Source: Melioribacteraceae bacterium
GTDB taxonomy: Bacteria; Bacteroidota; Ignavibacteria; Ignavibacteriales; Melioribacteraceae
Direction of reading: 5' to 3'
Length of the DNA stretch: 64,000 bases
Assembly (NCBI GenBank): GCA_016927595.1
Contig: JAFGMI010000048.1
Span: forward strand, 1-64,000
Shown: one piece after another, positions 13,220 through 36,300 of the stretch
How the letters are laid out: each line of letters opens with the position of its first letter
How positions within the stretch are numbered: position 1 is the stretch's first letter
Notes under the pieces: model-generated
The model's database searches: none
What the model saw: the letters and a program-made list of their open reading frames with translations, nothing else
Told to the model about the DNA's origin: nothing
Made by a program: the position numbers and the translations under genes

Positions 13220-13223
13220 AATA

Positions 13224-14753
13224 CTAACGATTCATGGCACGATTACCGGTATTGCGTTTGTCCGATGAGATTACAGTTTCGTTGAAAACAAGAGTTACTT
13301 TGGTTCCGTTTTCTTTGCTGCTTTCAATCCGCAAATCAATATTATTTATGTCGCAATATTTTTTAGTGAGAGCTAATCCCAGTCCGTTCCCCTCGTATTT
13401 TCTGTTTACACCTTCATCTTCCTGTGTGAAAGGTATAAAAACACGTTGTATGTATTCCCGGCTCATCCCTATGCCTGTATCTGCAAATTCGATAACAAGT
13501 TTATTTTGAATATCCGAGTATAGTCTTACCTCAATACTTCCGCATGTTGTGAATTTAACGGCGTTGTCTAAAATATTCAGTAAAATCTGCCTGAGCATAT
13601 ATTCATCACAATTAACCAATAAATTTTCTGTTTCCCGCATGTAACGAAATTCAATACCCTTTGACAAAGCATACTGTCGGTATTTCATAAATACTTCATT
13701 AAAAACATCAGTAAAAATATTCAGCTCCCTTGGTATAAAATCGTATGAATCCGTCATTACCTCCGACATATCAAGAATCATATTGATTGTTCGGATAATT
13801 CTTTCGCCTCCTCTGTTAATAACTTCGAATCCTGTAATATACTCGGGATCCAGTTTATCCTTAACCTCTTCCTTTATCAGATTCGCAAAACTCAGTATTG
13901 CATTTATCGGAGTTCTTATCTCATGCGACATTTGTGCAAAGAACATAGATTTAAGCCTGGCGTTTCTGTTATTAGCATCCTTTAATTTATTCTGCAGTCT
14001 TATTTCTTCATGCCTGTTTATAAATTCGAATATCCACCAGCCGGTATTCTTAAGCTTTGTTATTATTATATCCGCAAAGCAAATTTGAATAGATTTTGTG
14101 AGGATTCTTGATTTGGAAACTACCACACTTCTTTGTTCACTGCGCAGAATCAGTTTGATATCATCAAATCCTTCGATGTTGAGAATATTTTCGAGCAGTT
14201 CATCTCTTAATTTGATTCCGGTCTTTAGTTGGAAATATTCCGCAAAACTTTCATTATAATCGATTAGTTTGATTGACCCGTCTATCACACACCTGGGTAT
14301 CGTGGAATTCATTACGTAATATAAATCCAATGGTTCGTATTCTCCTGCAGGATGATTTTTTTGCAGACTGAAATAATTGGTAAATTCGATTGAAAATAAT
14401 TTAAATGCCTTTAAATCGACCCGTTTTATACTACAATCAATTGTCTCATTATGAAAATGTTGATGTCTCAAATGAAGTTTGAGTTCATTGGTATTTGATT
14501 CGCCGGATAAGAAGTTTATCAGATTATTAAGTTCGGCGATATTGTCCCGATGAAACGATATAAGAAGTTTCTGAATGTTAAACTCCGAACAGTCGTTAGG
14601 CGATAACTTCAAAAATTTTAAAGCTGCCTCATTTACGAATAAAAGCGCATTTTCTCTGAAGAGAATCAGCGGATAGTCCTCTGAATTGAATAATAATACA
14701 ATGGAAATTAGGTCTTCATTACCAATGTTTGGAGCACAATAATATTTTTCCAT
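13224..14753 (-). CDS. Cytoplasmic PAS-domain sensor histidine kinase
   Basis: A 509-residue kinase without a membrane segment. The N-terminal half has two weak PAS-like units (LILFRENALLFVNEAALKFL and PRCVIDGSIKLIDYNESFAE). HisKA carries His277 in AQMSHEIRTPINAILSF, and the ATPase domain has N box LDNAVKFT, G1 FADTGIGMS and G2 GNGLGLALTKKYC. It is convergent with the kinase ending at 13219, only 4 bases away, and the QEDEGVNRKYEGNGLGL segment is close to the equivalent in that neighbour (QEDEDGLTREYEGTGLGL), so the pair may be paralogues. Its cognate regulator is not identifiable; receivers at 7235-10639 are candidates. Confidence 0.9.
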   Translation of the reverse strand: MEKYYCAPNIGNEDLISIVLLFNSEDYPLILFRENALLFVNEAALKFLKLSPNDCSEFNIQKLLISFHRDNIAELNNLINFLSGESNTNELKLHLRHQHFHNETIDCSIKRVDLKAFKLFSIEFTNYFSLQKNHPAGEYEPLDLYYVMNSTIPRCVIDGSIKLIDYNESFAEYFQLKTGIKLRDELLENILNIEGFDDIKLILRSEQRSVVVSKSRILTKSIQICFADIIITKLKNTGWWIFEFINRHEEIRLQNKLKDANNRNARLKSMFFAQMSHEIRTPINAILSFANLIKEEVKDKLDPEYITGFEVINRGGERIIRTINMILDMSEVMTDSYDFIPRELNIFTDVFNEVFMKYRQYALSKGIEFRYMRETENLLVNCDEYMLRQILLNILDNAVKFTTCGSIEVRLYSDIQNKLVIEFADTGIGMSREYIQRVFIPFTQEDEGVNRKYEGNGLGLALTKKYCDINNIDLRIESSKENGTKVTLVFNETVISSDKRNTGNRAMNR

Positions 14754-19837: not shown

Positions 19838-21172
19838 ATGAATCAAAAAAGTTCAATAAAAACCGGCACAACTAATTATACTTCCATAATTATAATTTCG
19901 ATAACTATTTCTGTTCTTATTCTTTATTATATTCTTACCGTAGTGACTCAAAAAACCCCGGAGAAGCAGGTTATCGAGATATTTTATGCAGACAATATTT
20001 CTGCAACACATCAGAAGGTTATCGATAATTTTAACAGAAAACATTCGGGTGCTATAAAAGTTACCCCAATTGACCTTCCGTTCTGGAAGTTCAGTACAAA
20101 TGAAAGAAAAGAACTTCTTACAAGAGCACTGCGCAGCAAGAGCGAACGTATTGATATTTTCGCAGTTGATCTGATATGGGCATCGAGATTTGCAAAATGG
20201 TGTGAGCCGATCGAATTGCTGAGTCCCCAAAATGATTACAAGGAATTTCTGAACTATTCTCTTGAATCCTGCATCGTGGACGGAAAGTTATATGCGCTTC
20301 CGCTGTATGTGGATATCAGTATTATGTATTACCGTGAGGATTTGCTTAGTAAAATTCCCGATTCTGAAAAAGTTATAAGCAAACTGAAAAACTCAATTTC
20401 CTGGGAAGAATTCATTGAACTCGCGAAATACTTCGATAAGGAAAAGAATCCGTTTTACCTTTTTCCGGCTGATGATTATGAAGGATTAATTTGCAGTTAC
20501 TTTGAACTGATACTGGGTCAGGATATAAATTTTTTTGATAACCCCGCTTTCGATATAAACAGTGAAACACCTAAAAAATCCCTCCAGTTACTGGTTGATC
20601 TCGTTAACAAATACTCTGTTTCTCCGCAGATTGTAAGCCAGTACAGGGAACAAAAATGTTATGAATATTTCTTGACCTATAACGGCGTATTTCTCAGAGG
20701 CTGGCCGAGTTTTGTTAAGGATAACAAGAACATGATGCACGATTATAATATAGAGCAGTACGTTAAAAAAGCCCCGCTGCCGCACTTCAATGGTAAAAGA
20801 ACCGGTTCGGTGTTCGGCGGCTGGAATCTGATGATATCCCAATACTCGCAGCATAAAGAAGAGGCGTTCAAATTCCTGCAGTATCTTACAAGCGAGGAAG
20901 CGCAGGAAATAATGCATAATGAGGGCGGTTATTTGCCCGTACTATCGGTATTTTATGAAGACAGCATCTACCTGAATAAATATCCCGAACTGACTTATAT
21001 GAAAAAATTACTGGACAACGGTATGCACAGACCGTTTTTAAAAGATTATACCAGGATCTCCGACATAATTTCATACTATGTTCACAGGGCTATTACTAAG
21101 GAAGTTTCTGTTGACGAAGCGTTGATTCAGGCGGATAAGATGATCAAAGCCAATAAAGTAATTATCAGGTAG
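19838..21172 (+). CDS. Membrane-tethered extracellular solute-binding protein, sensor type
   Basis: A family 1 (sugar-type) solute-binding protein of 444 residues. The N-terminus has an uncleaved-looking membrane helix (IIIISITISVLILYYILTVV) without a lipobox, so it is likely anchored in the inner membrane facing the periplasm. Binding-protein landmarks follow: IDIFAVDLIWASRFAKW, LYALPLYVDISIMYYREDLL, FGGWNLMISQYSQHKEEA, and LTSEEAQEIMHNEGGYLPV. No ABC permease or ATPase gene is nearby. Instead a kinase begins 6 bases after its stop. The arrangement suggests that it presents sugar to the kinase rather than to a transporter. The preceding 247-base gap probably carries the promoter, but no clear motif was identified. 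Confidence 0.88.
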   Translation: MNQKSSIKTGTTNYTSIIIISITISVLILYYILTVVTQKTPEKQVIEIFYADNISATHQKVIDNFNRKHSGAIKVTPIDLPFWKFSTNERKELLTRALRSKSERIDIFAVDLIWASRFAKWCEPIELLSPQNDYKEFLNYSLESCIVDGKLYALPLYVDISIMYYREDLLSKIPDSEKVISKLKNSISWEEFIELAKYFDKEKNPFYLFPADDYEGLICSYFELILGQDINFFDNPAFDINSETPKKSLQLLVDLVNKYSVSPQIVSQYREQKCYEYFLTYNGVFLRGWPSFVKDNKNMMHDYNIEQYVKKAPLPHFNGKRTGSVFGGWNLMISQYSQHKEEAFKFLQYLTSEEAQEIMHNEGGYLPVLSVFYEDSIYLNKYPELTYMKKLLDNGMHRPFLKDYTRISDIISYYVHRAITKEVSVDEALIQADKMIKANKVIIR

Positions 21173-21178
21173 ATAACG

Positions 21179-22660
21179 ATGTCAAAGTCCAGAATAATTG
21201 AAAATATTAATAAATACAGATTCGAGTTCAAACATCTCACGGTGCTGTTTGTTGTTATGATTTTCTTCCAGATAATTTTATCATTCATTCAAAAGTCTTC
21301 TCTGCAGAGTTTTCTTCTTGAAACGCAGAAATCTTATCAGCAGTACAGTGCAGAAAAAATGGCAAACTTAACCAGCACTTCACTGGAACTGCTTCTCGAA
21401 AATATTAACATTATGGATATAACAGACGAAGATGAAAAGCAAAAAATAATTCAATCGTTCAATATTATATTCAGTCAGCAGCTTCTGCAGCATAATGTCG
21501 AGGATATTTGCATAATTGTTTCAAGGAATCATAATACGTTTGCAATTGACGATGGCTCGATGCTTTTTGATTATCTTACCAATTATCTTAACTATACCCG
21601 CGAACCAGCGCTGCGTCATCAAGATGCCGTTAACAGATATCTGGATATTGAAGACAAGCTAAAGGTCGAAGAAAAGATTTACAGTACTCTCGAAGGTATG
21701 CAGACTTTTCACATTTTTGTTCCGTTCGTACCGAACGGAGAATATCAGGGAGTTGTTTACCTGAAAAAAACACCCGATTTTACATTCCTCACGAATGAAA
21801 TTGCATCAAGCTATGACGAGGCTGCGATTATTTACTCATCGTTAATCTTACTGGGTCTTCTTACAATGTATTATATTTCATCGTATACTGTTAAGGAAAG
21901 AGATGAAGTACAGAAAAAATTTCTTGTGGAACACGAAAACTTCATCAAGGAACAGATTATGCATGAGAAGGAATCGCTTTTTACGAAAAGAATTTATCAT
22001 ACGCATCATAAAGCCGAAAAAATTATGGGATTTATAAAAGAGGACCTGAGAATTATAAATAAAGACAACATCGATGAAATTAAGAACCGCGTCACAAAAT
22101 ATTCCAATTTCATATCGCGTGTTATTTACGACATGAAATGGTACGATCCGCCTATACACACACTGCGGAATCAGATGTTCAACACTAACGTCAACGAAAT
22201 TATTAATTTTCTTACAAGCCACATATTTTTAAGATTGTCTTCGAGTACCGATATATTCAGCTTTGAATTAAACCTGGATAACGATATACCTTTGATTCAT
22301 ATTAATGAATTCGTAGTATGGGAGATATTTGAACCACTGATTCAAAACAGTATTGATCATTCTGGTGACAGGAAAATAAAGATAAATATTCAATCGAAGT
22401 ATTTTAAGAATCAAAACCTGTCTGAAATTTTAATCTCGGATGATGGAACCGGTATACCCGGAGAACTTCTCGAGACTGATCCGGAAGGCGTGAAAAAGAT
22501 ATTTAATGAAAATGTTTCTACAAAGATAACCGAGAACAAAAATTCGGGTTACGGCTGCTATATTGCGCATCAGATGGCAACAAAAAGATGCGGCTGGCTG
22601 CTAGATGTTTACAATAATCCGGATAAGGGCTGTACCTTTAAAGTAACAATACCACACTAA
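21179..22660 (+). CDS. Membrane histidine kinase with periplasmic domain
   Basis: A 493-residue sensor kinase with two membrane helices, about residues 20-38 (LTVLFVVMIFFQIILSFI) and 220-240 (IIYSSLILLGLLTMYYI), enclosing a periplasmic domain of about 180 residues. A cytoplasmic helical region follows (EHENFIKEQIMHEKESLFTK), in which the phospho-acceptor is probably a His of RIYHTHHKAEK, not the standard H-box. The ATPase domain is present but divergent: N box LIQNSIDHS, G1 ISDDGTGIPG, G2 NSGYGCYIAHQMA. Lying between a solute-binding protein and a sigma-54 regulator, it most likely reads the bound sugar state across the membrane. Confidence 0.87.
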   Translation: MSKSRIIENINKYRFEFKHLTVLFVVMIFFQIILSFIQKSSLQSFLLETQKSYQQYSAEKMANLTSTSLELLLENINIMDITDEDEKQKIIQSFNIIFSQQLLQHNVEDICIIVSRNHNTFAIDDGSMLFDYLTNYLNYTREPALRHQDAVNRYLDIEDKLKVEEKIYSTLEGMQTFHIFVPFVPNGEYQGVVYLKKTPDFTFLTNEIASSYDEAAIIYSSLILLGLLTMYYISSYTVKERDEVQKKFLVEHENFIKEQIMHEKESLFTKRIYHTHHKAEKIMGFIKEDLRIINKDNIDEIKNRVTKYSNFISRVIYDMKWYDPPIHTLRNQMFNTNVNEIINFLTSHIFLRLSSSTDIFSFELNLDNDIPLIHINEFVVWEIFEPLIQNSIDHSGDRKIKINIQSKYFKNQNLSEILISDDGTGIPGELLETDPEGVKKIFNENVSTKITENKNSGYGCYIAHQMATKRCGWLLDVYNNPDKGCTFKVTIPH

Positions 22661-22670
22661 TGGAGAAGCA

Positions 22671-24119
22671 ATGTCAGATAGAAAGATTAAAATATTGTTG
22701 ATAGAAGATGAAGAATTTGATGTAAGGCGGGTCAGGAATACAATTAAACTATTCGATCAGTTGATCACGATTGTCGATGTAACATCGAACGGCTCCGATG
22801 CACTTGACCTGTTGAAAAAGAATACTAAAAGTTACGATCTGGTAATAATGGATTATCAGATTGCAGGAGCGCTCCGTGGCGAGGAACTGATAAAAAAAAT
22901 AAAACAGATAAACAGCACGATACAGATAATTGTTATCACAAAATTAACCATAAATGTTTCCGATTTCGATTTTGCAAAAAGTCTTATGCGTGCCGGAGCT
23001 TTCTGGTACTGCACAAAGTACCCTGGAGATATTGACGAGTACATTTATCAGCCCACCGATTTTCTTATGAGCATTTTGAATGCATATGACAAAAAAAGGC
23101 TGGAAGAGGAGAGTTATAACTCCAATAAAAAACTTATACGGAATATTGACGAAATACTTGAAAAGAAAAAAATTATTTCTGCTTCTGATTCAATAAGAAA
23201 GCTTAAGGTCTCGATTGAGAAACTTGCAGAGAGCGATATTAACATTCTTATTAGCGGCGATTCAGGTACCGGCAAAGAACTGGTGGCAAACAATATACAT
23301 TACAGAAGCGCAAGGAAACTCGAAAACTTTGTGCCCATAAACTGTGGAAGCATTCCTCATGACCTCATTGAAAGTGAATTATTCGGTTATGAGAAAGGTG
23401 CGTTCACTGGTGCAAATACAGGCAAGCAGGGTTTGTTTGAAGTCGCAAATAACGGTACGATTTTTCTGGATGAAATAGGTGAACTGCCGTTGTCAGCTCA
23501 GGTAAAACTCCTTAGATTTATTCAGGAGGGGGAGATTGAAAAAATTGGAAGAACTAAAAGTATAAAAGTTAACGTGAGAATTATTGCCGCCACCAACAAA
23601 AATCTTGAAGATGAAATTGAAAAGGGAAATTTCAGGGAAGATTTGTTTTACAGGTTAAATATCGTTCCTTTGCATATCCCGCCGCTGAAAAACAGACCTG
23701 AAGATATAGATCTGCTGTTTGAATATTTTAAGATTCTTTATAGTCACGAGCTGGGGAAAACTATTCCCGCGGTCGATAAAGAAGTTCTGCAATCCTTAAA
23801 AAATTATTATTGGCCCGGAAATGTAAGAGAATTAAAAAATGTAACGCAGCGACTGGTTTTTTACAGTGACGGGAAAATTACATTGGAAGATCTTAATTTG
23901 GCTTTAACAAGGCGTAAGAAATCAGGCGCGAATGATTCACCTTTCAGATTCTCCGACACATCGCAGATACAACCCTTAAAGGATATTGAAAGAAATTTCA
24001 GGAAGTATTATTTCATGTTTGTAAGAGATAATTCGGAATCGGATGCCCATGCTGCAATGAAACTGGGTCTGGCTCCACCCAATTTCCACAGGATGTGTAA
24101 GGAACTGGGATTGAAATAA
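22671..24119 (+). CDS. Sigma-54-dependent response regulator (NtrC family)
   Basis: A 482-residue transcription activator. The receiver has IEDEE, Asp61 in LVIMDYQIAG, and a Lys near the end. The AAA+ domain is complete: Walker A SGDSGTGKELVAN, sigma-54 contact loop EKGAFTGANTG, Walker B IFLDEIGELPLS, and the arginine-finger region FREDLFYRLNIV. The C-terminal 45 residues (LKDIERNFRKYYF, SDAHAAMKLGLAPPNFHRM) are a Fis-type helix-turn-helix. It ends the binding-protein/kinase operon. Tandem palindromes start within its stop codon region and precede a sigma-54-like promoter for the next gene, so it probably activates the glycan genes. Confidence 0.94.
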   Translation: MSDRKIKILLIEDEEFDVRRVRNTIKLFDQLITIVDVTSNGSDALDLLKKNTKSYDLVIMDYQIAGALRGEELIKKIKQINSTIQIIVITKLTINVSDFDFAKSLMRAGAFWYCTKYPGDIDEYIYQPTDFLMSILNAYDKKRLEEESYNSNKKLIRNIDEILEKKKIISASDSIRKLKVSIEKLAESDINILISGDSGTGKELVANNIHYRSARKLENFVPINCGSIPHDLIESELFGYEKGAFTGANTGKQGLFEVANNGTIFLDEIGELPLSAQVKLLRFIQEGEIEKIGRTKSIKVNVRIIAATNKNLEDEIEKGNFREDLFYRLNIVPLHIPPLKNRPEDIDLLFEYFKILYSHELGKTIPAVDKEVLQSLKNYYWPGNVRELKNVTQRLVFYSDGKITLEDLNLALTRRKKSGANDSPFRFSDTSQIQPLKDIERNFRKYYFMFVRDNSESDAHAAMKLGLAPPNFHRMCKELGLK

Positions 24120-24160
24120 ACTTATTATTCTAATAAGTATAACTTATTATTTTAATAAGT
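24120..24160. promoter_or_regulatory. Tandem palindromic upstream activator sites before the GH5 gene
   Basis: Two 19-base palindromes, ACTTATT-ATTCT-AATAAGT at 24120-24138 and ACTTATT-ATTTT-AATAAGT at 24142-24160, repeat with a period of exactly 22 bases. Both arms are perfect in both copies. Centres lie 92 and 70 bases upstream of the -24 element at 24221. A closely related pair with the same period and spacing precedes the symporter at 26452. Most likely binding sites of the sigma-54 activator encoded immediately upstream. Confidence 0.75.
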
Positions 24161-24220
24161 TGTAATTCAAATTGAACTCCATAAGCTATCAAACTACGGT
24201 AAAATAAAGATTTGCTTTAA

Positions 24221-24235
24221 TGGTCCGGGATTTGT
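24221..24235 (+). promoter_or_regulatory. Sigma-54-like promoter of the GH5 gene
   Basis: TGGTCCG-GGAT-TTGT matches the consensus TGGCACG-N4-TTGC at 8 of 11 positions, with GG and TG correctly spaced. Transcription would start near 24246, leaving a leader of about 38 bases before the GTG start. Its support comes mainly from the activator sites at the proper upstream distance. Confidence 0.6.
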
Positions 24236-24283
24236 AAAATCTTATATGGGTGAACTACCAATCAACAATCTGCGGGGTTATTT

Positions 24284-26275
24284 GTGCGTTTCATTTTCGC
24301 TTTACTGCTATCTGTTTCAATAATTAACGGACAGGGTTTTCTGAAAACTAATGGTAAAAAAATTATCAACGGTGCCGGAACAGAAATAATTTTACGTGGG
24401 ATAGGACTTGGTGGCTGGATGCTGCAGGAAGGTTATATGCTTAAAACAAGTTCGTTTGCAAATGCCCAGCATAAACTCAGAAACAAGATTGAGCAATTAT
24501 TAGGTAAAGAGAAAACAGATGATTTCTACTCTGCATGGCTGTCGAATCATTTCAGAAAAATTGATGCAGATGCTCTTTCCGATTGGGGATTTAACAGTGT
24601 AAGACTGCCTATGCATTATAATTTATTTACACTTCCCATTGAAGATGAACCTGTTGCCGGTGAAAATACTTTTTTGGAAGTCGGCTTCAACATGATTGAT
24701 GAATTATTAAACTGGTGCGAAACCAACAGGATGTATCTTATACTTGATCTCCATGCAGCCCCGGGCGGACAGGGTCATGATGAGCCGATAGCCGATTACG
24801 ATCCTGCAAAACCGTCACTATGGGAAAACGAATTTAACAGAAGCAAGACTGTAGCGTTTTGGAGAAAAATTGCAGAAAGATATGCAGATGAAGAATGGAT
24901 AGGCGGATATGATTTAATAAACGAACCGAACTGGGAACTGCCCGGAAATACTATGCTTCGAGAATTGTATGTGAATATTACCAATGCAATACGTGAAGTT
25001 GATAGCAACCATATAATTTTTATAGAGGGAAATTGGTTCGCAACCGACTTTAATGGTCTTACCCCCGCCTGGGATGATAATATGGTTTACAGCTTTCATA
25101 AATACTGGAATGAAAATTCGCTCAATTCAATTAATTACCTGCTCAGTTTGAGAGACAGCGAAAATGTTCCGTTATGGCTGGGAGAAACCGGCGAGAATTC
25201 AAATGTCTGGTTCAAAGAATGCGTAGAATTGATGGAATCGAACAATATCGGCTGGGCATGGTGGCCCCAGAAGAAGATCGATAACGTTGTCGGACCACTG
25301 TCGGCACCGATTGATCCGGGTTATCAAAAACTGCTGAACTACTGGCAGGGCAGCGCACCGGAACCGGGTGTTGATGAAGCGTATTCCTCGCTGATGCAAC
25401 AGGCTGAAAATATGAAATATGAAAACTGCACTTTTCAGCCGGGAGTAATCGATGCTTTATTCAGACAACAGGATTCCGAGGCTTCAAAACCTTTTAAAGA
25501 ACATAACCTGCCAGGTATTGTATTTGCAACTGAATATGATCTGGGAACAATAAATACTGCGTATAAGGATGTCGACTATCAGAATACTAAGGGACTCGGT
25601 GCGGCACAGTGGAATACCGGAAACAAATTCAGGAATGACGGAGTTGATATTGAGGAGTGCCAGGATATAATATCGAACGGTTATAACGTAGGATGGATCG
25701 AAAACGGGGAATGGTTGAAATTCACTTTAAATGTTGATACACCCGGCAGTTTTGAGATTGATGTACGGTATGCCGCCAACAGTTCGGGAGGTAAGGTTTT
25801 ATTAACTATGGACGGACAAAATATCGGCGGCGCTGTTGACCTTCCCGTTACCGGGGGATGGCAGAACTGGGCTTCATTAACTGTTGGCGAAGTGGAGTTG
25901 ACTGCCGGCAGACACGAATTGATGCTGAGATTTTTCGGCAGCGGTTATAATTTTAACTATGTTGAGTTTTTCGCTACAACTGTCGGGGTTAACGATAATA
26001 ATAATACACCTTCCGGATTTTTATTGGATCAGAATTATCCGAATCCGTTCAACAGTCAGACAACTGTCAGATATAATGTACCCGAATCTTCGGATGTTTT
26101 AATTTCTTTGTATTCATATACTGGTGAAAAGATTACCAATCTGGTAAACAAATTCATGCAGCCAGGCATTTACTCGATGAATATTAATTTCAATAATTTA
26201 ACTTCGGGAATATATCTGATAAGCATGAAAACTGAAAAATATAATAGTACAATAAAAACAGTACTTCTTAATTAA
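24284..26275 (+). CDS. Secreted GH5 endoglucanase-type enzyme with CBM6 and T9SS sorting domain
   Basis: A 663-residue extracellular glycoside hydrolase. After a signal peptide (FIFALLLSVSIINGQ), residues 20-350 form a GH5 catalytic domain: LRGIGLGGWMLQEGYM, acid/base Glu214 in YDLINEPNW, and nucleophile Glu301 in PLWLGETGEN. This pattern resembles exo-beta-1,3-glucanase and cellulase subfamilies. Residues about 395-570 are a CBM6-like module (WIENGEWLKFTLNV, FEIDVRYAANSSGGKV, YNFNYVEFF). The end is a type A T9SS sorting domain (LDQNYPNPFN, then LTSGIYLISMKTEKY). Beta-glucan is the likely substrate, given neighbouring GH16 and GH3 genes. It starts at GTG with a GGGG-type ribosome-binding site. 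Confidence 0.92.
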   Translation: MRFIFALLLSVSIINGQGFLKTNGKKIINGAGTEIILRGIGLGGWMLQEGYMLKTSSFANAQHKLRNKIEQLLGKEKTDDFYSAWLSNHFRKIDADALSDWGFNSVRLPMHYNLFTLPIEDEPVAGENTFLEVGFNMIDELLNWCETNRMYLILDLHAAPGGQGHDEPIADYDPAKPSLWENEFNRSKTVAFWRKIAERYADEEWIGGYDLINEPNWELPGNTMLRELYVNITNAIREVDSNHIIFIEGNWFATDFNGLTPAWDDNMVYSFHKYWNENSLNSINYLLSLRDSENVPLWLGETGENSNVWFKECVELMESNNIGWAWWPQKKIDNVVGPLSAPIDPGYQKLLNYWQGSAPEPGVDEAYSSLMQQAENMKYENCTFQPGVIDALFRQQDSEASKPFKEHNLPGIVFATEYDLGTINTAYKDVDYQNTKGLGAAQWNTGNKFRNDGVDIEECQDIISNGYNVGWIENGEWLKFTLNVDTPGSFEIDVRYAANSSGGKVLLTMDGQNIGGAVDLPVTGGWQNWASLTVGEVELTAGRHELMLRFFGSGYNFNYVEFFATTVGVNDNNNTPSGFLLDQNYPNPFNSQTTVRYNVPESSDVLISLYSYTGEKITNLVNKFMQPGIYSMNINFNNLTSGIYLISMKTEKYNSTIKTVLLN

Positions 26276-26306
26276 GTCCTCTTAATATTCTATTTTCATG
26301 CAATCT

Positions 26307-26347
26307 GCTTATTAAAAAAATAATCTCTCCTTATTATTTTAATAATT
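26307..26347. promoter_or_regulatory. Second pair of tandem activator sites, before the symporter operon
   Basis: GCTTATT-AAAAA-AATAATC at 26307-26325 and CCTTATT-ATTTT-AATAATT at 26329-26347 are imperfect versions of the sites at 24120-24160 and again start exactly 22 bases apart. Centres are 91 and 69 bases upstream of the -24 element at 26407, within one base of the spacing in the first pair. Confidence 0.65.
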
Positions 26348-26406
26348 GACCTCATTCATAAAATCCGAATTTACCGTATACTTACCCATAAACAAGCTTT
26401 TTAATC

Positions 26407-26421
26407 TGGCATTAAATATGA
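26407..26421 (+). promoter_or_regulatory. Sigma-54-like promoter of the symporter operon
   Basis: TGGCATT-AAAT-ATGA keeps the TGGCA of the -24 box and the TG of the -12 box at the correct spacing (7 of 11 consensus positions). On its own it would be weak evidence; the paired upstream sites at the same distance as in the GH5 promoter make it credible. Confidence 0.5.
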
Positions 26422-26451
26422 GTTATTCAAATTTGACTTCACGGGTAAAAT

Positions 26452-28026
26452 TTGATAGATAACTTAACAGCTCAGGATAACATATTTATACTGGCATATT
26501 TTGTAATTGTGCTGTTTATTGGGATAATTGCTTCTGTCGGAAAGGATAAAACAATTAACGATTATTTCCTGGCCGGGAAAAATATGGGCTGGGTAATAGT
26601 CGGAACATCTTTGTTTGCAACAAATATTTCGAGTGAACATATTATCGGACTTGCCGGCGCAAGTTCGGTGCATGGATTGAGCGTCGGTTATTTTGAATGG
26701 ATCGCTGTGTTCATTCTTATAATGCTCGGATGGCTTTTCGCTCCTATTTTTATTAAATCCGATGCGGTTACAATGCCGCAATTCCTGGGTAGAAAATATG
26801 GTGACAAAGTAAGAAGCTACCTTACGGCTGTTTCGCTTGCAGCATACTTTTTTACGAAAATAGGTGTTACCATTATTGCAGGCGGCTACCTTCTGAGTAA
26901 AATTTTAGGTCTCGACCTGTTCACATCGGCTGTCTTTATCGTATTACTTACCGGACTTTACACCGTAATCGGCGGTCTCTCTTCAGTAATGAAAACTCAG
27001 TTATTTCAAACAGTAATTTTACTAACCGGTTCAATTCTTCTTGCCTACTTCGGATTGGACAAAATCGGGGGCGTTGCCACACTTGTGAATAAATTGCCCG
27101 AAAGCTATTTCAACGTGATCAAATCAACGACAGATCCCGATTTTCCCTGGACCGGTATTCTATTCGGTGCACCGATACTCGGAATATGGTATTGGTGTAC
27201 CGATCAATATATTGTTCAGCGAATCTTGGCAGCTAAAGGTATATCAGATGCGAGAAAAGGAACTTTTCTGGCGGCGTTTCTGAAACTTGTGCCGGTTAGT
27301 CTGCTTATAATACCCGGTCTGGTAGTTGCTGTTGAATTCCCGAACATCAAAGGGGATGATGCTATTACCTACCTCATATCGGGCGATCTGCTTCCGGTAG
27401 GTATAAAAGGTATAGTTATAGCAGGCATATTTGCCGCTTTCATGTCTTCGTTATCAAGTGCATTCAACAGCTCTGCAACACTAATTGCCATCGATATATT
27501 TCAGCCGAGAAAACCACATGCTGCCGAAAGTCAGGTAGTGCTGGTCGGGAGACTGGCTACTATTTTAATTGTAATCCTCGCAATTCTGTTCATACCCCTG
27601 CTGAAAATTATTAACAGTCAGATTTATATATATCTGCAGAAACTTCAGGCTTTTATAAGTCCGCCTATAGCCAGCGCATTTTTATTCGGAATATTCTGGA
27701 AAAAATCGTCTTCAAAGGGATTATTATGGGCTCTGGTAATAGGAGGAGTAATTGGTTTTATAAGAATCATAACTTCCGTAATAAATCCCACGCTGATTGA
27801 AGATCTTTATGTAATTAATTACTTCAATACGATCCACTATCTGCATTTCGCTGTAATACTGTTTTTCATATCATCAGCGGTGCTTGTTGCCGTGAGCAGG
27901 TATGATAACCGAATGAAGAAAAACCTGATATTTGAAAATGAAAACATAAACAACGATCAAGACGATTTTGAGACTGAATCACTTAATCAGGAAAAAGAGA
28001 AACTGGAAATAAGCGAACATAAATAA
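26452..28026 (+). CDS. Sodium:solute symporter (SSS family), probably sugar uptake
   Basis: Inner-membrane Na+-coupled transporter of the SGLT/SSS family, 524 residues with about 13-14 helices. Landmarks are DYFLAGKNMGWVIVGTSLFA, NISSEHIIGLAGASS, and the sodium-site region GIFAAFMSSLSSAFNSSATL. The sequence between (YWCTDQYIVQRILAAKG) is typical of sugar-transporting members. The TTG start is followed by a short hydrophilic head and the first helix. A charged tail (QEKEKLEISEH) ends the protein. Its promoter region has the tandem operators described at 26307, so it is probably induced with the glycan-degrading enzymes to import released glucose or short oligosaccharide. Confidence 0.92.
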   Translation: MIDNLTAQDNIFILAYFVIVLFIGIIASVGKDKTINDYFLAGKNMGWVIVGTSLFATNISSEHIIGLAGASSVHGLSVGYFEWIAVFILIMLGWLFAPIFIKSDAVTMPQFLGRKYGDKVRSYLTAVSLAAYFFTKIGVTIIAGGYLLSKILGLDLFTSAVFIVLLTGLYTVIGGLSSVMKTQLFQTVILLTGSILLAYFGLDKIGGVATLVNKLPESYFNVIKSTTDPDFPWTGILFGAPILGIWYWCTDQYIVQRILAAKGISDARKGTFLAAFLKLVPVSLLIIPGLVVAVEFPNIKGDDAITYLISGDLLPVGIKGIVIAGIFAAFMSSLSSAFNSSATLIAIDIFQPRKPHAAESQVVLVGRLATILIVILAILFIPLLKIINSQIYIYLQKLQAFISPPIASAFLFGIFWKKSSSKGLLWALVIGGVIGFIRIITSVINPTLIEDLYVINYFNTIHYLHFAVILFFISSAVLVAVSRYDNRMKKNLIFENENINNDQDDFETESLNQEKEKLEISEHK

Positions 28027-28092: not shown

Positions 28093-30594
28093 ATGAGAAG
28101 ATTGTTAATAACTCTATTTGCGTTCTTATTAAGTTTTACTCTAGTAAACGCACAGCAGGAAGTTCAGGTGATGAATTTCGACACCGCCGCTGCCGATACT
28201 CTTTACATGGCAAATCATGAAGGTGAACCGCCGCAGGGTGGTCCTGCAAGTTACATGACCTTTGAGGATGACAATACCGACTTTGTTGAAGGTACGGGCG
28301 CTCTTAAAATTAAATATGTTATCGGTGCTTACCATCCATGGGGAAGCTACGGTAATGCTATTCATCCGGATGGAGGCGCAGAAGAACCTGTTTATAATTT
28401 CAGCGGGCGGGAATTTATAAGCATCTGGATGAAAATTCATAATGCGCCTGTATATCCTGAATATATGGTTTTCAGAATGCATCTGAAAGACAGACCTTAC
28501 CCGGAAGCTGATTTCGAAGAATACATTTATCAGAATAATACTGTTATAGATGCTCAGGCTGACTGGTTTGAATTGAAAATTCCCCTGGTCGATCTTGAAA
28601 CAGGCGGCAACTCCGATCCGAATGATCAGGGATTCTCTCTGTTTCCTTCAGGCTGGACAAGAAGTCATGAAAATAATTTAATGCTCGATCTTGATAAAAT
28701 CGTCGGGTGGAATATTTCCGCTGTTACAGCTGGCTGGACTGATCCTGCATTAATTCCTGCCGATTCGGTTGTTGTTTCTTATGATAACATGATGCTGAAA
28801 GGTTTCAGAGCTGTTCCGCACGTGTTCTTCAACGGTAAAACGATGAATACCACTTTCTCACAATTTACATGGGGACAATCGCAATTAATTCTGGAAGAAG
28901 GAGCAGGATCAGAAACCGGTAAAAACGCGATGAAATGGACAATGGGCGATGAATGGGCAAACGGCTGGACTGGAATCGGATGGAACGTTGATCCCGCTAT
29001 GAATATGCTTGGTTCGTGGCCGGTTGATTCAGTTAAAATTAGAGTGAAAGCCGGTACAAGTACAGGTGCTTTAAGAGTACAGTTTGAATCCAGTGGTGGA
29101 AAGGTGGGCAAGGTTTTCACACCTGTTGCAGATGAACAATGGCACTTATATTCACTGGCATTGAAAGATTTTGTTGTTCAGGATAATTTACCGGATTTCG
29201 ATACTTCTAATGTTACCGTTGTTGGCTTAATGGCTGAAGCTTCAGCAGTAGCAGGAAACGTTGTTTATTTTGAAGATTTCTGGACAGGCAATCCGACTAT
29301 CGACGTCGTTCCGCCGGCTGCACCGCAATCGTTCCTTCCGTTCGGTTCCGGTGACTACGTTAACCTGATTACATGGATTGATGTTACCGGCGAATCAGGT
29401 GAACTATATAATATTTATTACAGCGAAAATCCTATCACAAGTCTTGAAGACGAGGGAATTGAAATTCTTAAAAAGAACATTGAAGAAAATCAGCAGGAGT
29501 TTACTCATACATTAAAAGCACCTCTCGATGATGCAGATGTAACTTACTATTATGCGATTGAATGTATGGACTATGCCGGAAACTTCAGTAATATAGTCGT
29601 TTCGGATGCCGTTACAAACAAAGCCAAAGGATCGCCGGTTATTCACGGTGAAGCTCCTGTAAATTTCGCAGCCGACGGTGACCTTAGTGACTGGGCTGGC
29701 ATAAGACCTTTTGTTCTGAATCCTGCAACCGGTGATGGTGTTGTTGTTACCAACCAGTCATGGGATGATGCAAACGACCTGTCAGCTAATTTTTATATTG
29801 CCACCGATGGTAATTACCTCTATGTGGCTTATGATATTGAAGACGATCTCTATGTCTGGAGCGATGCACAGGCTTCATACTATAATGATTCACCTGATAT
29901 ATTTATAGGACTTTACGACACTAAGGGTAAATTGCATACCGCTTATAAAAGAGATGATGAACCGGATTACCACTTTAGGTTTACACCCACCGCATTAATA
30001 CTGGATAATCTGGCAAGTGCAGCGGTTATTGATACATCGAGTTCCGATTTCTATCACGATGTAAAATTCCCTACAGGTTACGTTTATGAAGCTAAAGTTT
30101 CGCTCGATAGCATTGCTGCGGTAGATGGCGATGCATTGTTCGTTCCCGAAAAGGGAATGAGAATTCCTTTCGATCTGGCAATAAATGATGCCGATGCTAC
30201 CGAAACACGCGAAGGTATAATTACACTTTCGCCAATCAATCAGGACAAAGGATATCAGGATGTTTCTGTATGGACACACACATGGATAGGAGATATGCCT
30301 ACCGATGTAAATGATGATGCGGTTGTTCCTTATACATTCACGCTGGATCAGAATTATCCGAACCCGTTCAATCCTGCAACACAGATTAAATACAGTATTG
30401 GTGAAACAGGCTTGGTAACTCTTAAAGTATTTAATATTCTGGGGCAGGAAGTTGTTACTCTGGTCAACAAAATACAGTCGCCGGGAAGTTATTTAATCAA
30501 TTTTGATGCATCCAGCCTTACTTCAGGTGTGTATGTTTATCAGATTCAATCAGGCTCAATGATAAGTTCTAAAAAAATGATGCTGATTAAATAG
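28093..30594 (+). CDS. Large T9SS-secreted carbohydrate-binding protein
   Basis: An 833-residue secreted protein with a clear signal peptide (LITLFAFLLSFTLVNAQQ) and an AGGAGG ribosome-binding site. Residues 25-240 and 240-410 look like two beta-sandwich carbohydrate-binding modules (FVEGTGALKIKYVIGAYHP, FISIWMKIHNAP; GKNAMKWTMGDEWANGW). A fibronectin-III-like unit follows (YVNLITWIDVTGESGELYNI). Residues about 510-740 form a CBM9/DOMON-like domain (FAADGDLSDWAGIRPF, DGNYLYVAYDIEDD). The last 80 residues are a T9SS type A sorting domain (LDQNYPNPFNPATQIKYSI). No catalytic motif is recognised. A glycan-binding role at the cell surface is inferred. Confidence 0.82.
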   Translation: MRRLLITLFAFLLSFTLVNAQQEVQVMNFDTAAADTLYMANHEGEPPQGGPASYMTFEDDNTDFVEGTGALKIKYVIGAYHPWGSYGNAIHPDGGAEEPVYNFSGREFISIWMKIHNAPVYPEYMVFRMHLKDRPYPEADFEEYIYQNNTVIDAQADWFELKIPLVDLETGGNSDPNDQGFSLFPSGWTRSHENNLMLDLDKIVGWNISAVTAGWTDPALIPADSVVVSYDNMMLKGFRAVPHVFFNGKTMNTTFSQFTWGQSQLILEEGAGSETGKNAMKWTMGDEWANGWTGIGWNVDPAMNMLGSWPVDSVKIRVKAGTSTGALRVQFESSGGKVGKVFTPVADEQWHLYSLALKDFVVQDNLPDFDTSNVTVVGLMAEASAVAGNVVYFEDFWTGNPTIDVVPPAAPQSFLPFGSGDYVNLITWIDVTGESGELYNIYYSENPITSLEDEGIEILKKNIEENQQEFTHTLKAPLDDADVTYYYAIECMDYAGNFSNIVVSDAVTNKAKGSPVIHGEAPVNFAADGDLSDWAGIRPFVLNPATGDGVVVTNQSWDDANDLSANFYIATDGNYLYVAYDIEDDLYVWSDAQASYYNDSPDIFIGLYDTKGKLHTAYKRDDEPDYHFRFTPTALILDNLASAAVIDTSSSDFYHDVKFPTGYVYEAKVSLDSIAAVDGDALFVPEKGMRIPFDLAINDADATETREGIITLSPINQDKGYQDVSVWTHTWIGDMPTDVNDDAVVPYTFTLDQNYPNPFNPATQIKYSIGETGLVTLKVFNILGQEVVTLVNKIQSPGSYLINFDASSLTSGVYVYQIQSGSMISSKKMMLIK

Positions 30595-30711: not shown

Positions 30712-33363
30712 TTGAGACTTAAATTTATCGCAATAGTTTTTACAGGACTAAGTATCCTCCTGAGTTATAATCTTTTTGCAGGGCAGACAGGCAAAATCGC
30801 CGGCAAGGTAACCGATAGTCAAACCGGTGAACCCGTAATAGGTGCTAATATTATTGTAGACGGCACCTACCTGGGGGCTGCTTCGGATATCGACGGTTAC
30901 TACTTTATTAATAATGTCCCTCCGGGAGTTTACAGTGTTGTTGTAAGCAGTATCGGTTATAAAAAAACAACCGTGACCGAGGTTCAGGTCCGAATAGATT
31001 TAACAACCAATGTTGATGTAGAACTGGTCTCCGAGTCGGTTGAACTGGGGCAGGATGTTGTGGTTGTTGCCGACAAACCTCTTGTGATAAAAGATCTGAC
31101 CTCAACATCTGCAACAGTATCATCCCGCGAAATTGATATGATGCCGGTTGAGAGTATAGGTCAGATTATTAATCTTCAGGCTGGTGTGATAGGCGGACAC
31201 TTCAGAGGCGGAAGATCAAACGAAGTTTCTTACCTTATCGACGGTTTGCCGGTTACTGATGCTTTTAATGGTCAGATTTCTGTTGAAGTTGAAAACAACT
31301 CTATTAGAGAACTGGAGATAATCAGCGGTACATTCAACGCTGAATATGGTCAGGCAATGTCGGGAATAGTTAACATAGTTACAAAGGAAGGCAACCAGAA
31401 TTTTGAGGGCAGTGCTACAGCTTATTTCGGCAACTACCTCTCAAAAGATGACGGTATATATGAGAACCTCGACAGGTTCAGTTTCAGGGGAATAAAAGAT
31501 TTTCAATTTTCATTATCGGGACCTACAAAAATATTGAACAGCTTAACCTTTTTTGTTACCGGCAGATATTTTAACGATGAGGGAAGCACATTCGGTAAAA
31601 GAGTATATAACACTTCTGATTATTTCTGGTTCATGCCGACAGGTGACGGCGAATATGTTTCCATGAATCCGTGGGAAAAATACTCTCTCAACGGGAAACT
31701 GACGTATAACCTTCCCAGCTGGAAGTTCAGCTATTCGTTGTTCTGGGATAAGGATGAACGATCCTATTATGATCATGCTTACAGATGGACGCCCGACGGT
31801 ATTCTAAATCACTTCAGCAAAAATATGATTCATAATGTTCAAATGTCATTCATTCCCTCCCAAAGCACTTTTACATCATTGAAATTCTCAGCAAACCGTT
31901 ATGAATTTTACGGATACCTTTACGAGGATCCATTTGATCCCAGGTATGTAAATCCTATTCAGGGTAATCCTTCTTCAGGATACACGTACAGACAGGGAGG
32001 CAATCAGTCCTGGCGTTATAAACGTTTTACCGAATCTTATATCGGTCAATGGACTTTTGAATCCCAGGTGAGCAGAGAACACAAGTTTAAGATGGGAGTA
32101 GAAGGTAGAATTACAAAGATTTTTAATCACAGTATGAACATCATAAATAAAGCAGGCGATGAACCTTTGACCGATACCGGAATTCCGGCTTTTGAACTCG
32201 GTTATCCGGAACTGCATGCAAGAGATAATCAGCAGTATACCAAATTTCCTTACGAGATAAGCGCGTATATTCAGGATAAAATGGAATACGATATAATGAT
32301 AATTAACGCGGGTCTGCGTCTGGATTATTTTAATGCCAATACTTCGATGCCCGCCGACTTAAGGAATGCGCTTAACAATCCCGATTTCCCGGGGTATAAT
32401 GAAAGAGTTGAAGTGGATGCAAAGATGCAGCTGAGCCCGAGAATAGGTGTGTCATTTCCGATTTCTGATCAGGGAGCTATATATTTCTCGTACGGTCATT
32501 TCTTCCAGATTCCCACTTTCGAAAACCTTTACGCTAACGATGAATATATAATTATACCGGGACAGTCTTTAAGCTCATATACCGGGAATCCTGATCTCGA
32601 CGTTCAGAAAACAGTCCAATACGAACTCGGTTTGCAGCAAGTGATTTTCCCTAATGTTTCTCTCGATCTCACGGTTTACTACAGGGATATCAGAAATCTG
32701 CTCGGTATGGAAATTATAAACACCTACGAAGGATCGAAATACGCTCGCTTCATAAACCGTGATTATGGAAATACAAAAGGATTTATTATAACGCTCGATA
32801 AAAGGTTTGCGGATTATTTCAGCGCTAAGATAGATTATACCTATCAGCTGGCTGAAGGTAATTCTTCGGATCCGATGGCAGTATATAACGATAATCAAAC
32901 CGATCCGCCTGTTGAGTCGGAAAAACATCTTGTGCCGCTGAACTGGGATCAAAGATCAACTATTAATTTTACAGCCAATGTCGGCGAACCTGGTGACTGG
33001 AATGTCGGGTTAATATTCCAGTACGGGTCGGGTCAGCCCTATACTGAAGATATTCGCATATCAAACGGTGTCAGGTTCGAAAACGGCGGAAGAAAACCAA
33101 CATTTTACAGCCTGGACCTGAAGGCTGATAAATTCTTCAGTATCGGTCCTTTGTCGGTAAATGCATTCCTGCTTGTGTATAATGTTCTTGACATAAGAAA
33201 TGAATTTGGTGTTTATGGAACTACCGGAAGAGCCAATGCAGATCTTAACGTAAAATTTGCCGGTGAGGTGATCGGCTACAACACAATTGATGAATATCTT
33301 AAAAATCCTGGTAACTATTCTGCGCCGAGACAAATTCGTCTTGGTTTAAGAGTGGGTTTCTAA
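30712..33363 (+). CDS. TonB-dependent outer-membrane receptor with N-terminal CarboxypepD_reg domain
   Basis: An 883-residue outer-membrane transporter. The signal peptide (FIAIVFTGLSILLSYNLFAG) is followed by the carboxypeptidase-regulatory-like domain (GKIAGKVTDSQTGEPVIGAN, SVVVSSIGYKK), the plug domain (residues about 130-230; EVSYLIDGLPVTDAFNGQ, AEYGQAMSGIVNIVTKEG) and a 22-strand barrel ending in the aromatic-terminated strand IRLGLRVGF. No SusD-like gene follows, so it is not a typical SusC/D pair. It begins at a TTG preceded by a GAGGAGG ribosome-binding site. It likely imports a glucan oligosaccharide or works with the two following genes. Confidence 0.91.
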   Translation: MRLKFIAIVFTGLSILLSYNLFAGQTGKIAGKVTDSQTGEPVIGANIIVDGTYLGAASDIDGYYFINNVPPGVYSVVVSSIGYKKTTVTEVQVRIDLTTNVDVELVSESVELGQDVVVVADKPLVIKDLTSTSATVSSREIDMMPVESIGQIINLQAGVIGGHFRGGRSNEVSYLIDGLPVTDAFNGQISVEVENNSIRELEIISGTFNAEYGQAMSGIVNIVTKEGNQNFEGSATAYFGNYLSKDDGIYENLDRFSFRGIKDFQFSLSGPTKILNSLTFFVTGRYFNDEGSTFGKRVYNTSDYFWFMPTGDGEYVSMNPWEKYSLNGKLTYNLPSWKFSYSLFWDKDERSYYDHAYRWTPDGILNHFSKNMIHNVQMSFIPSQSTFTSLKFSANRYEFYGYLYEDPFDPRYVNPIQGNPSSGYTYRQGGNQSWRYKRFTESYIGQWTFESQVSREHKFKMGVEGRITKIFNHSMNIINKAGDEPLTDTGIPAFELGYPELHARDNQQYTKFPYEISAYIQDKMEYDIMIINAGLRLDYFNANTSMPADLRNALNNPDFPGYNERVEVDAKMQLSPRIGVSFPISDQGAIYFSYGHFFQIPTFENLYANDEYIIIPGQSLSSYTGNPDLDVQKTVQYELGLQQVIFPNVSLDLTVYYRDIRNLLGMEIINTYEGSKYARFINRDYGNTKGFIITLDKRFADYFSAKIDYTYQLAEGNSSDPMAVYNDNQTDPPVESEKHLVPLNWDQRSTINFTANVGEPGDWNVGLIFQYGSGQPYTEDIRISNGVRFENGGRKPTFYSLDLKADKFFSIGPLSVNAFLLVYNVLDIRNEFGVYGTTGRANADLNVKFAGEVIGYNTIDEYLKNPGNYSAPRQIRLGLRVGF

Positions 33364-33392
33364 GAATATAAAATTCGTAAATGGAGGCGTGG

Positions 33393-36300
33393 ATGTATCG
33401 TCGTATTTTGACATTAATTTTTCTTTTAACAATCTGTTCTGTAATGGTTGCACAAACTACTCCGGAAATCGAAGGATATCGGAACGATGAATTGGGCAGC
33501 TTTCAATACGAACGCGAAGGTACAATGGACGGTAATCAGGTAAGAACCCTGTTCCGTAATAATGGACAGGTAGGCTACTGGCCATTTCAGCCTTCGGGCG
33601 AATGGCCGAAAGGATCCGGTCACAGCTACCTCGACGGTGTTGCTGTACTGATTGCATCGGAGGTGGTAACTCCAACCGACAGGGTAATTCACCCGCTGGC
33701 AACAGCCTACCGTGAGCATTATGATTACGATCCGGTTACCGGACAAAGGTGGACACTCGAAGCGGTTCCGGGATACATGAATCCTTCATCCGAATCACCC
33801 GCGATGAGTAATAAAAATAATACCTGGCCGGATATTTGGCCGCGCGCGCTGTATAACGTGAACACCAACTGGGATGGTTACTGGTACGGTTATTTCGGAA
33901 GAGGTGTCCTTAATGCCGATATAGAAACATTCTTTGTTATGGATGATTCGAAAGACCGTGAATGGACCCGTGTACCTTACAGCTATTATCCTATTGCAAG
34001 CGATTCTGCCAGAGGCGGTCTGGGTTTGAGAGTGGAGGTGCGCGGTTTTCAGTGGTCGCATGTGCTCGCCGAAGATATAATTTTCTGGCACTACGATATA
34101 GTTAATATCTCCGACCATGATTATGATAAAACAGCTTTCGGTTTTTATACGGACTCGGGTGTTGGTGGTACTGATGATAGCGGTGACGACTATGCATACT
34201 TCGATAAGACCCTCGATATTACTTATGCATATGATGAGGACGGTTTAGGAACCCCCGGAAGGTATCCTACCGGTTATTATGGTTATGCATATCTCGAAAG
34301 CCCCGGTATAGGCACAAACGGCATAGATGATGACGAAGACGGAATCATTGACGAAACCAGAGATAACAATATAGATGATGATGGCGATTGGGTGCCTTAC
34401 ACAGATCTTAATGGCAATGATGTTTGGGATGCTGATGAAAATGAACCCTTGAATGACGACCTGGGCGCCGATGGTGTAGGTCCTTACGACAGACAATACA
34501 ACGGTCCCGATGAAGGTGAAGGCGATGGTGTACCTACACACGGTGAGCCTCATTTCGATGAAACCGATATTACAGAATCGGATATGATTGGTTTAACCAG
34601 TCTCGACATTTACATTCTTGGTGACGGCGGAACCGGCGGCGGCTGGGGAAAAGACGATGAATCAATGTGGGGAAAAATGACCTCGAACGAATTTGCCACT
34701 GAACTGCAGAATAAAAACATCTCAATGGTGTTCGCTTCCAGTCCATTCCCGCTCGCAAAAAACAAACGCGAAAGATTTTCGATGGCTCTTGTCTTCGGTT
34801 CGGATCTCGACGATCTTATTTTCAACAAAGAAACTGTTCAGGAAATTTATGACGCTAACTATAATTTTTCCAAACCGCCTTTAAAACCAACATTAACCGC
34901 AATTCCGGGAGACGGGAAAGTATTTCTTTATTGGGACGATATTGCCGAGGAATCCCGCGATCCTTTTATGGGATATGAAATTCCCGACGATCCCACTTCG
35001 GGTCCGAAGAAAGACTTCGAAGGTTACATGATTTACAGAAGTACCGAACCGGAATTTAATGATATCAAGGTAGTCACAGATTCAAAAGGTGAACCTAAAT
35101 TCTGGAAGCCTATAGCTCAATTCGATCTGATCGATGGAATTGAAGGTCCCGATCCGGTGGGGATTAATGGTGCTAGCTTCTGGCGCGGTAAGGAAACGGG
35201 TCTTCAGCATTCGTACGTCGACTCTAACGTAACAAACGGTCAGCAGTACTATTACGCAGTTGTTTCGTACGATATGGGTGACCCGGAAAGAGGTACAAAA
35301 GGATTAACACCTTCCGAATGTACTAAAATTATAACCGAAGATTTTGCCGGTAATATTCAGTTTATCGACATCAATTGCGCAGTTGTTACTCCTAATGCAA
35401 GAGTGGCGGGATACCTTCCGCCTGAAATAAGCGGTAACCTTAACGAAGTGACTGAAGGAATCGGAACTGGAAGGTTGAATCTTAACGTACTTAATCCGGC
35501 AGAGATTAAAAACGATGCTTCTTATCAGGTAGTATTTTACTCCGAAGGTGATTTCCCGACATATACAACGGATAATTTTTCAGTAATAAGGACCTATGAC
35601 GGTACGGTTGATACAATGGTATTAAACAGTAGAGAAATCGGATTGACGAAGTTCAGCGAACCTTTTGACGGCATGGTAGTTTCCATTGATAATGATACTT
35701 CGATTTCAGTAAACCTCGATGAGACCGGCTGGCTTGTCGGTACTAATCCCCTTAATATCATCGTTAGGGAAGATACAACAGGAAGCAGCATGCCATGGCC
35801 TTCGGATTATGAAATTCATTTCCATAATGATCCGGTTTATACCACACCGTTTTCGAAAATTCCCGTCGAATTTGAAGTTCTTAATGTTACTACCGGCGAA
35901 CAATCTGATGCGGAAATAGTGGACCGGGATAAATCCGGTGACCTGAGCGTCGGTGATGATATTCTGATTGTGGAATATGTCGGCACAAGATTCAAAGTTG
36001 CATGGCGAATTCATTATTTCAGAACACTTTTTCCCGGAGCTCCCAATCTTGAACCGGGCGAAGGAGATATCTATTTCATAAAAACGAACAAGCCTTTTTA
36101 TAATGGAGATAAATTTACTTTTTCAACCAGATCTGAAGAGATAGATAATGAGCTTGCTAAAACGCAGCTTGAAAAAATAAAAGTTGTTCCAAATCCCTAT
36201 GTAGCGCAGGCTGAATGGGAGAAAAGAAATCTTAATCAAACCGGACGTGGTGAAAGGCGAATTGACTTTATCCATCTGCCAAGCGAGTGCACTATCAAAA

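Follow-up and report, generated by a model that had tools for sequence, protein, structure and literature searches.

Doubled palindromes upstream of two glycan-gene promoters as predicted enhancers of a neighbouring sigma-54 activator in Melioribacteraceae

Two promoters of glycan genes within the window (the whole stretch of DNA analysed, 64,000 nucleotides of a Melioribacteraceae bacterium) carry a doublet of palindromic sites upstream of a predicted sigma-54 element. As read from the sequence, these doublets are almost certainly where the sigma-54 activator encoded nearby docks. It is highly probable that they serve as classical enhancers (upstream activating sequences) for this activator, whose gene lies beside them and shares an operon with those of a sugar-binding protein and a kinase. 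The sites, their conservation, their co-occurrence with the regulator, the sigma-54 elements and the helical phasing were all established by computation.

The tandem 19-bp palindromes described in the earlier note at 24120/24142 and 26307/26329 were recovered with the same coordinates and sequences, no strand being assigned to them. In the case of the GH5 promoter, both copies, ACTTATTATTCTAATAAGT (24120–24138, directly after the stop codon of the activator gene) and ACTTATTATTTTAATAAGT (24142–24160), are perfect matches to ACTTATT-N5-AATAAGT. The copies before the symporter gene, GCTTATTAAAAAAATAATC (26307–26325) and CCTTATTATTTTAATAATT (26329–26347), show three and two mismatches to the 19-mer, respectively, which are confined to the outer two bases of each arm, whereas none of the four copies at the two promoters deviates from the inner 15-mer TTATT-N5-AATAA. 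Thus, the description of the symporter copies as degenerate applies to the outer bases but not to the inner 15-mer, and the conserved unit is this 15-bp core and not the outer ACTTATT form.

The copies are exactly 22 bp apart from start to start in both doublets, as had been claimed, and the doubled core stands 61–62 bp before a TGG-N9-TG element. The TGG starts at 24221 and 26407, placing the palindrome centres 92 and 70 bp (GH5) and 91 and 69 bp (symporter) upstream of it, within the reported 91–92 and 69–70 bp. These values are right, but the three spacings had been presented as independent and are not fully so, as they amount to one 22-bp rule and one promoter distance. The predicted -24/-12 elements on the forward strand are TGGTCCGGGATTTGTA for GH5 (24221–24236, predicted start near 24246) and TGGCATTAAATATGAG for the symporter (26407–26422, predicted start near 26433). 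The -12 element of the latter (ATGA) is weak taken alone; symporter promoters of relatives share its form, e.g., TGGCATTGTTTATGAG.

The 3.85-Mb genome was scanned by pattern search, with the reversed pattern as control. The perfect doubled core has exactly two matches, both in this glycan cluster, against zero for the perfect reversed pattern; the doublet is not widespread, and the argument that such agreement is unlikely by chance in AT-rich DNA holds. When up to three mismatches are allowed, 20 matches are found in the whole genome against nine for the reversed control, and the near-doublets with two or three mismatches, which barely exceed that control, were left out of the regulon. Apart from frame-shifted overlaps of the two, the closest further match to a doublet with 22-bp spacing in the window shows 10 mismatches. 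A near-doublet with two mismatches (G000:C38:65811-65847, L065) lies in low-complexity DNA, with the gene of another sigma-54 activator (68746) about 3 kb away.

That the palindromes are only a chance pattern of AT-rich intergenic DNA has a negligible probability. Single copies with one or two mismatches are scattered over the genome, but 20 pairs spaced exactly 22 bp were counted around the activator orthologues against 0.55 expected from local shuffles of the loci. Moreover, the generalised doublet TTATY-N5-RATAA has many tens of matches in 58 relatives against two for the reversed control, i.e., about one chance match per forty real ones, and the sigma-54 element after the doublet is replicated in a hold-out set of sites (see below). 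The conservation data already refute the chance reading.

Orthologues of the activator, 53–71% identical, are found in most genomes of the family and the order. Many of them, spread over many genera, have the same doublet directly downstream of the activator gene and upstream of the next transporter gene, and some carry only single or degenerate sites. In its generalised form (two TTATY-N5-RATAA copies with starts 21–23 bp apart) the doublet occurs in about 30 relatives, and among 87 doublets the copy spacing is 22 bp in 48, 23 bp in 21 and 21 bp in 13. Among the 58 relatives, the doublet is present in 30 of the 39 genomes with an activator orthologue and in one of the 19 without (Fisher p=3e-7). 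Of the 73 doublets listed, 42 lie within 10 kb of an orthologue, whereas the same radius around 56 more distant sigma-54 activators contains none. The other 31 are located more than 10 kb from any orthologue and lend no support from linkage; they fit a trans-acting regulator, as expected. In the tree of 45 activators, the label of a neighbouring doublet is clustered (seven changes vs. 14.8 when shuffled, 0 of 500 shuffles).

No doublet was found in the control loci of distant activators (871,561 bases, wider contig scan), where the best match (55% identity, labelled Neomarinimicrobiota) is accompanied by one perfect copy of the site but no doublet. Doublets are sporadic beyond the order in the class-level scan. 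In one genome of the same class, nine matches come from a single 21-bp tandem array (G146:C9:3951-4154), which is probably an unrelated repeat.

The TGG...TG motif had been proposed as a sigma-54 element on the grounds of its spacing, and this is borne out by the relatives. The search for elements with GG and TG at the right spacing and a score of 11 or more covered the DNA downstream of those doublets that have a long open frame. Such elements follow 67 of the 84 doublets in the discovery set, compared with 10 of 84 when that DNA is read on the wrong strand, and 38 of the 42 in the hold-out set, compared with eight of 42. Among these 38 elements, 23 fall within the distance windows of 59–63 and 70–74 bp that were fixed beforehand. 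The hold-out sites were fetched after the windows had been set, and some of their genomes are congeners of discovery genomes, so that the p-value of 5e-17 overstates independence. The consensus across relatives, TGG[CT]A[CT]-N5-TTG, agrees with that of sigma-54 at positions to which the search gave little weight; 97% of the elements have A at position 5 and 99% have C or T at position 6, as in TGGCAC. The genome also encodes RpoN (PF04552, E=3.9e-60, at G000:C6).

The distance between doublet and promoter is not fixed, contrary to what the earlier note had proposed; among relatives it takes several values that form a ladder, each step being one turn of the helix. When pooled, the distances fall into groups at about 59–61, 70–74, 79–83, 89–91 and 101–105 bp, with a period of about 10.7 bp (R=0.58, p=2e-4 vs. 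a smoothed envelope). Given this grouping, enhancer and promoter stay on one helical face, with the distance shifting by whole turns. The paired palindromes, at their spacing of 21–23 bp, are in register with each other and with the promoter, the arrangement that marks an enhancer.

It was also considered whether the palindromes are RNA elements, either the terminator of the activator gene or a structure of the 5′ leader, which is very improbable. The first doublet begins right after the activator stop codon, and as RNA its two copies fold into one hairpin (-14.4 kcal/mol, z=-4.7). However, any tandem palindrome can fold, and the symporter doublet reaches only -5.9 kcal/mol. A terminator was rejected on the A/T stem, the lack of a T-run and this weak second fold: an intrinsic terminator has a GC-rich stem and a T-run, whereas these arms are nearly pure A/T with no T-run after them. 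The doublets of relatives precede unrelated genes and sit between divergent promoters. They also lie at a conserved phase upstream of the promoter element and, because of this position, outside the target transcript.

The enhancer reading leads to the operon that ends at the first doublet. Three forward-strand genes, starting at 19838, 21179 and 22671, form a tight operon, the kinase gene being separated by 6 bp from the first and by 10 bp from the third. The first (19838–21172) encodes a sugar-type extracellular solute-binding protein (SBP; Pfam SBP_bac_1, 2.6e-18; a weak MalE-like match) with an N-terminal membrane anchor, as judged from its sequence. The second (21179–22660) encodes a sensor histidine kinase (HATPase_c, 1.4e-12; AtoS-like C-terminus), the presumed partner of the activator. 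No ABC permease was found among the scanned neighbour genes, and for this reason the SBP is more likely a sensor subunit than part of a transporter.

The third gene (22671–24119) encodes an NtrC-type response regulator of the sigma-54 activator family (Pfam Response_reg, 6.6e-13, and Sigma54_activat, 2.5e-70). D61 of its receiver domain is invariant in the orthologues and was taken as the phosphoacceptor. The AAA+ domain contains GAFTGA, with residues 243 and 245–248 invariant in the orthologues. Pfam gave no match to a Fis-like domain at the C-terminus, which is below detection. The AlphaFold model places there one long and two short helices (436–453, 458–465 and 469–478; pLDDT about 80–85), a predicted Fis-like helix-turn-helix of three helices. 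Foldseek with the whole protein ranks NtrX, NtrC1 and NtrC4 first.

No site is present upstream of 19838 in the window. Autoregulation of the operon was considered and rejected: relatives often carry a doublet upstream of it, but the sigma-54 element usually faces a divergent MFS gene. For instance, five loci (L096, L097, L144, L147 and L148) have one doublet between the SBP operon and a divergent MFS gene, with a clear sigma-54 element on the MFS side only.

The proposal that the doublet is the likely operator of the activator encoded at 22671 gains support from its tracking with that activator and its linkage to it (30/39 vs. 1/19 and 42/73 vs. none, as given above), and position together with co-occurrence favours this protein as the putative binder. 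It is unlikely that the doublet instead serves another regulator as its enhancer, the main candidate being the activator of a paralogous SBP, kinase and regulator module on contig C51, or serves both. This paralogue (G000:C51:20536) is 61% identical to the activator at 22671 and hardly differs from it in the helix-turn-helix, including the recognition helix. Single TTATCAN3TGATAA-like sites accompany some members of its clade, in a few cases beside sigma-54 elements. Against it, all eight rows of the fully supported paralogous clade, including the member of this genome, are without a neighbouring doublet, the motif search around the clade returned only single similar sites, and the doublets flank activators of other clades. 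Cross-binding by the paralogue is possible, as is a core common to both whose flanks and copy number differ.

The second module itself (G000:C51:17711-21984; L062:1712-5985) is without a doublet and adjoins GH97-, alpha-galactosidase-, GH105- and pectin-degradation-like genes, as named from a reading of their translations. In three other loci of the paralogous clade (L098, L085 and L083), single TTTTATCAN3TRATAAAA sites near SBP operons or sigma-54 elements are a possible variant operator. There is about an even chance that modules of this type run separate glycan clusters throughout the order, each paralogous clade having its own version of the TTATY-N5-RATAA core (doublets here and single flanked TTTTATCAN3TGATAAAA-like sites in the paralogous clade), with sigma-54 replacing SusR/HTCS-type regulation of polysaccharide use in this lineage.

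The first predicted target of the activator at 22671 is a secreted GH5 glucanase (24284–26275, forward strand; Pfam Cellulase, CBM_6 and Por_Secre_tail) with a CBM6 and a T9SS sorting tail. Its PDB matches include CelC, glucan 1,3-beta-glucosidases and a beta-1,3-glucan-related CBM6, and our best guess for the substrate is a beta-glucan. The second is a sodium:solute symporter (26452–28026, forward strand; Pfam SSF, 3.4e-76; TIGR00813). Three further forward-strand genes follow it, namely a CBM9-like T9SS protein (28093–30594, Pfam; gap of 66 bp), a TonB-dependent receptor (30712–33363, Pfam; gap of 117 bp) and a large protein without family (33381–36482; gap of 17 bp). From their common strand and these gaps, they may be co-transcribed with the symporter. 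None of the eight scanned proteins of the cluster belongs to the SusD family, and the TonB receptor scores far below the SusC/RagA cut-off; among these proteins there is thus no SusD-like lipoprotein beside SusC of the kind that defines a SusCD polysaccharide utilisation locus.

As regards the regulon that had been predicted, the doublets of relatives mostly precede Na+/solute symporters, MFS transporters and glycoside hydrolases; in this genome, strict doublets limit it to the two promoters. The genes after doublets in relatives include a sodium/solute symporter in 30 cases, the SBP operon in 11 and a divergent MFS transporter in nine. Secreted proteins such as GH5 and others like it also occur there, as do a TonB receptor and a ROK sugar kinase. 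The glycoside hydrolase families represented are GH2, GH3, GH5, GH9, GH16, GH30, GH31 and GH125.

In the proposed mechanism, the signal would be an oligosaccharide outside the cell, probably a fragment of a beta-glucan. The anchored SBP and the histidine kinase would sense it, and the kinase would phosphorylate the NtrC-type regulator of the same operon. Dimers of the regulator would occupy both TTATY-N5-RATAA palindromes, which lie two helical turns apart and on one face of the DNA, and this paired binding would promote assembly of the AAA+ ring. The ring would then touch the sigma-54 RNA polymerase, positioned some six to ten turns further downstream at the -24/-12 promoter, and use ATP hydrolysis to open the promoter. 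As a result, the GH5 glucanase and the Na+/solute symporter would be switched on, perhaps with the downstream CBM9-like and TonB-receptor genes.

The mechanism is that of a textbook sigma-54 enhancer, and systems of this kind are known. NtrC binds tandem palindromic sites upstream of glnA. The doublets share with NtrC-family enhancers the paired palindromes, a dimeric response regulator of the Fis type (predicted here, as is its binding), the -24/-12 promoter, helical phasing and a GAFTGA AAA+ domain; they differ in the nearly A/T-only operator TTATY-N5-RATAA and in their glycan targets. Upstream activating sequences of Clostridiales enhancer-binding proteins are mostly reported at 100–250 bp (PMC6615313), whereas the enhancer here is very close, about 60–105 bp from its end to the -24 element.

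As for the sensor, the binding protein is encoded with a kinase and a response regulator and would control polysaccharide-use genes, as in AraPST of Geobacillus and ChiS with its chitin-binding protein, which are sensors composed of a sugar-binding protein, a histidine kinase and a response regulator. Here, however, the response regulator is a sigma-54 activator, whereas AraT-type regulators are not known to depend on sigma-54. The polysaccharide utilisation loci of Bacteroidetes combine SusC/SusD with hybrid two-component or ECF regulators. The cluster resembles them in its TonB-dependent receptor, secreted glycoside hydrolases with T9SS tails and local regulator, and departs from them in that the scanned cluster proteins include neither SusD nor a hybrid kinase, the main transporter predicted to be regulated is a sodium symporter, and sigma-54 is used. 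In Firmicutes, CelR and LevR, activators with PTS regulatory domains, exert sigma-54 control on sugar PTS operons. They are alike in that sigma-54 serves sugar use; control here is by a two-component system and no PTS is involved.

An enrichment of PTS in sigma-54 control of sugar use has been described (PMC12316311). In a 2025 survey of sigma-54 regulons, PTS-type sugar genes are reported in Bacillota, and its passages on carbohydrates are silent on this operator and regulon. The open-licence literature gave no description of the operator, the regulon or an SBP sensor that, in this lineage, acts through a sigma-54 activator in polysaccharide use; the operator, the regulon and the helical ladder appear to be undescribed.

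From sequence alone, and in dozens of genomes that are uncultured or little studied, an orphan three-gene sensor is linked with the operator and the genes it is predicted to control. Glycan regulons thereby become predictable by pattern search, and a regulatory circuit becomes readable from genome sequence. Helical phasing at short-range sigma-54 enhancers has otherwise been studied with engineered constructs, and the natural ladder of enhancer-promoter distances offers a comparative test of it.

Two loci show richer arrangements of the sites. In L067 (about 13196–13254, reverse strand), three palindromes stand in a row with 22-bp spacing before a symporter, i.e., with one extra dimer site. 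In L084, two complete doublets (reverse strand, 15209 and 15299) are located 90 bp apart, between a symporter gene and a divergent gene on the opposite strand.
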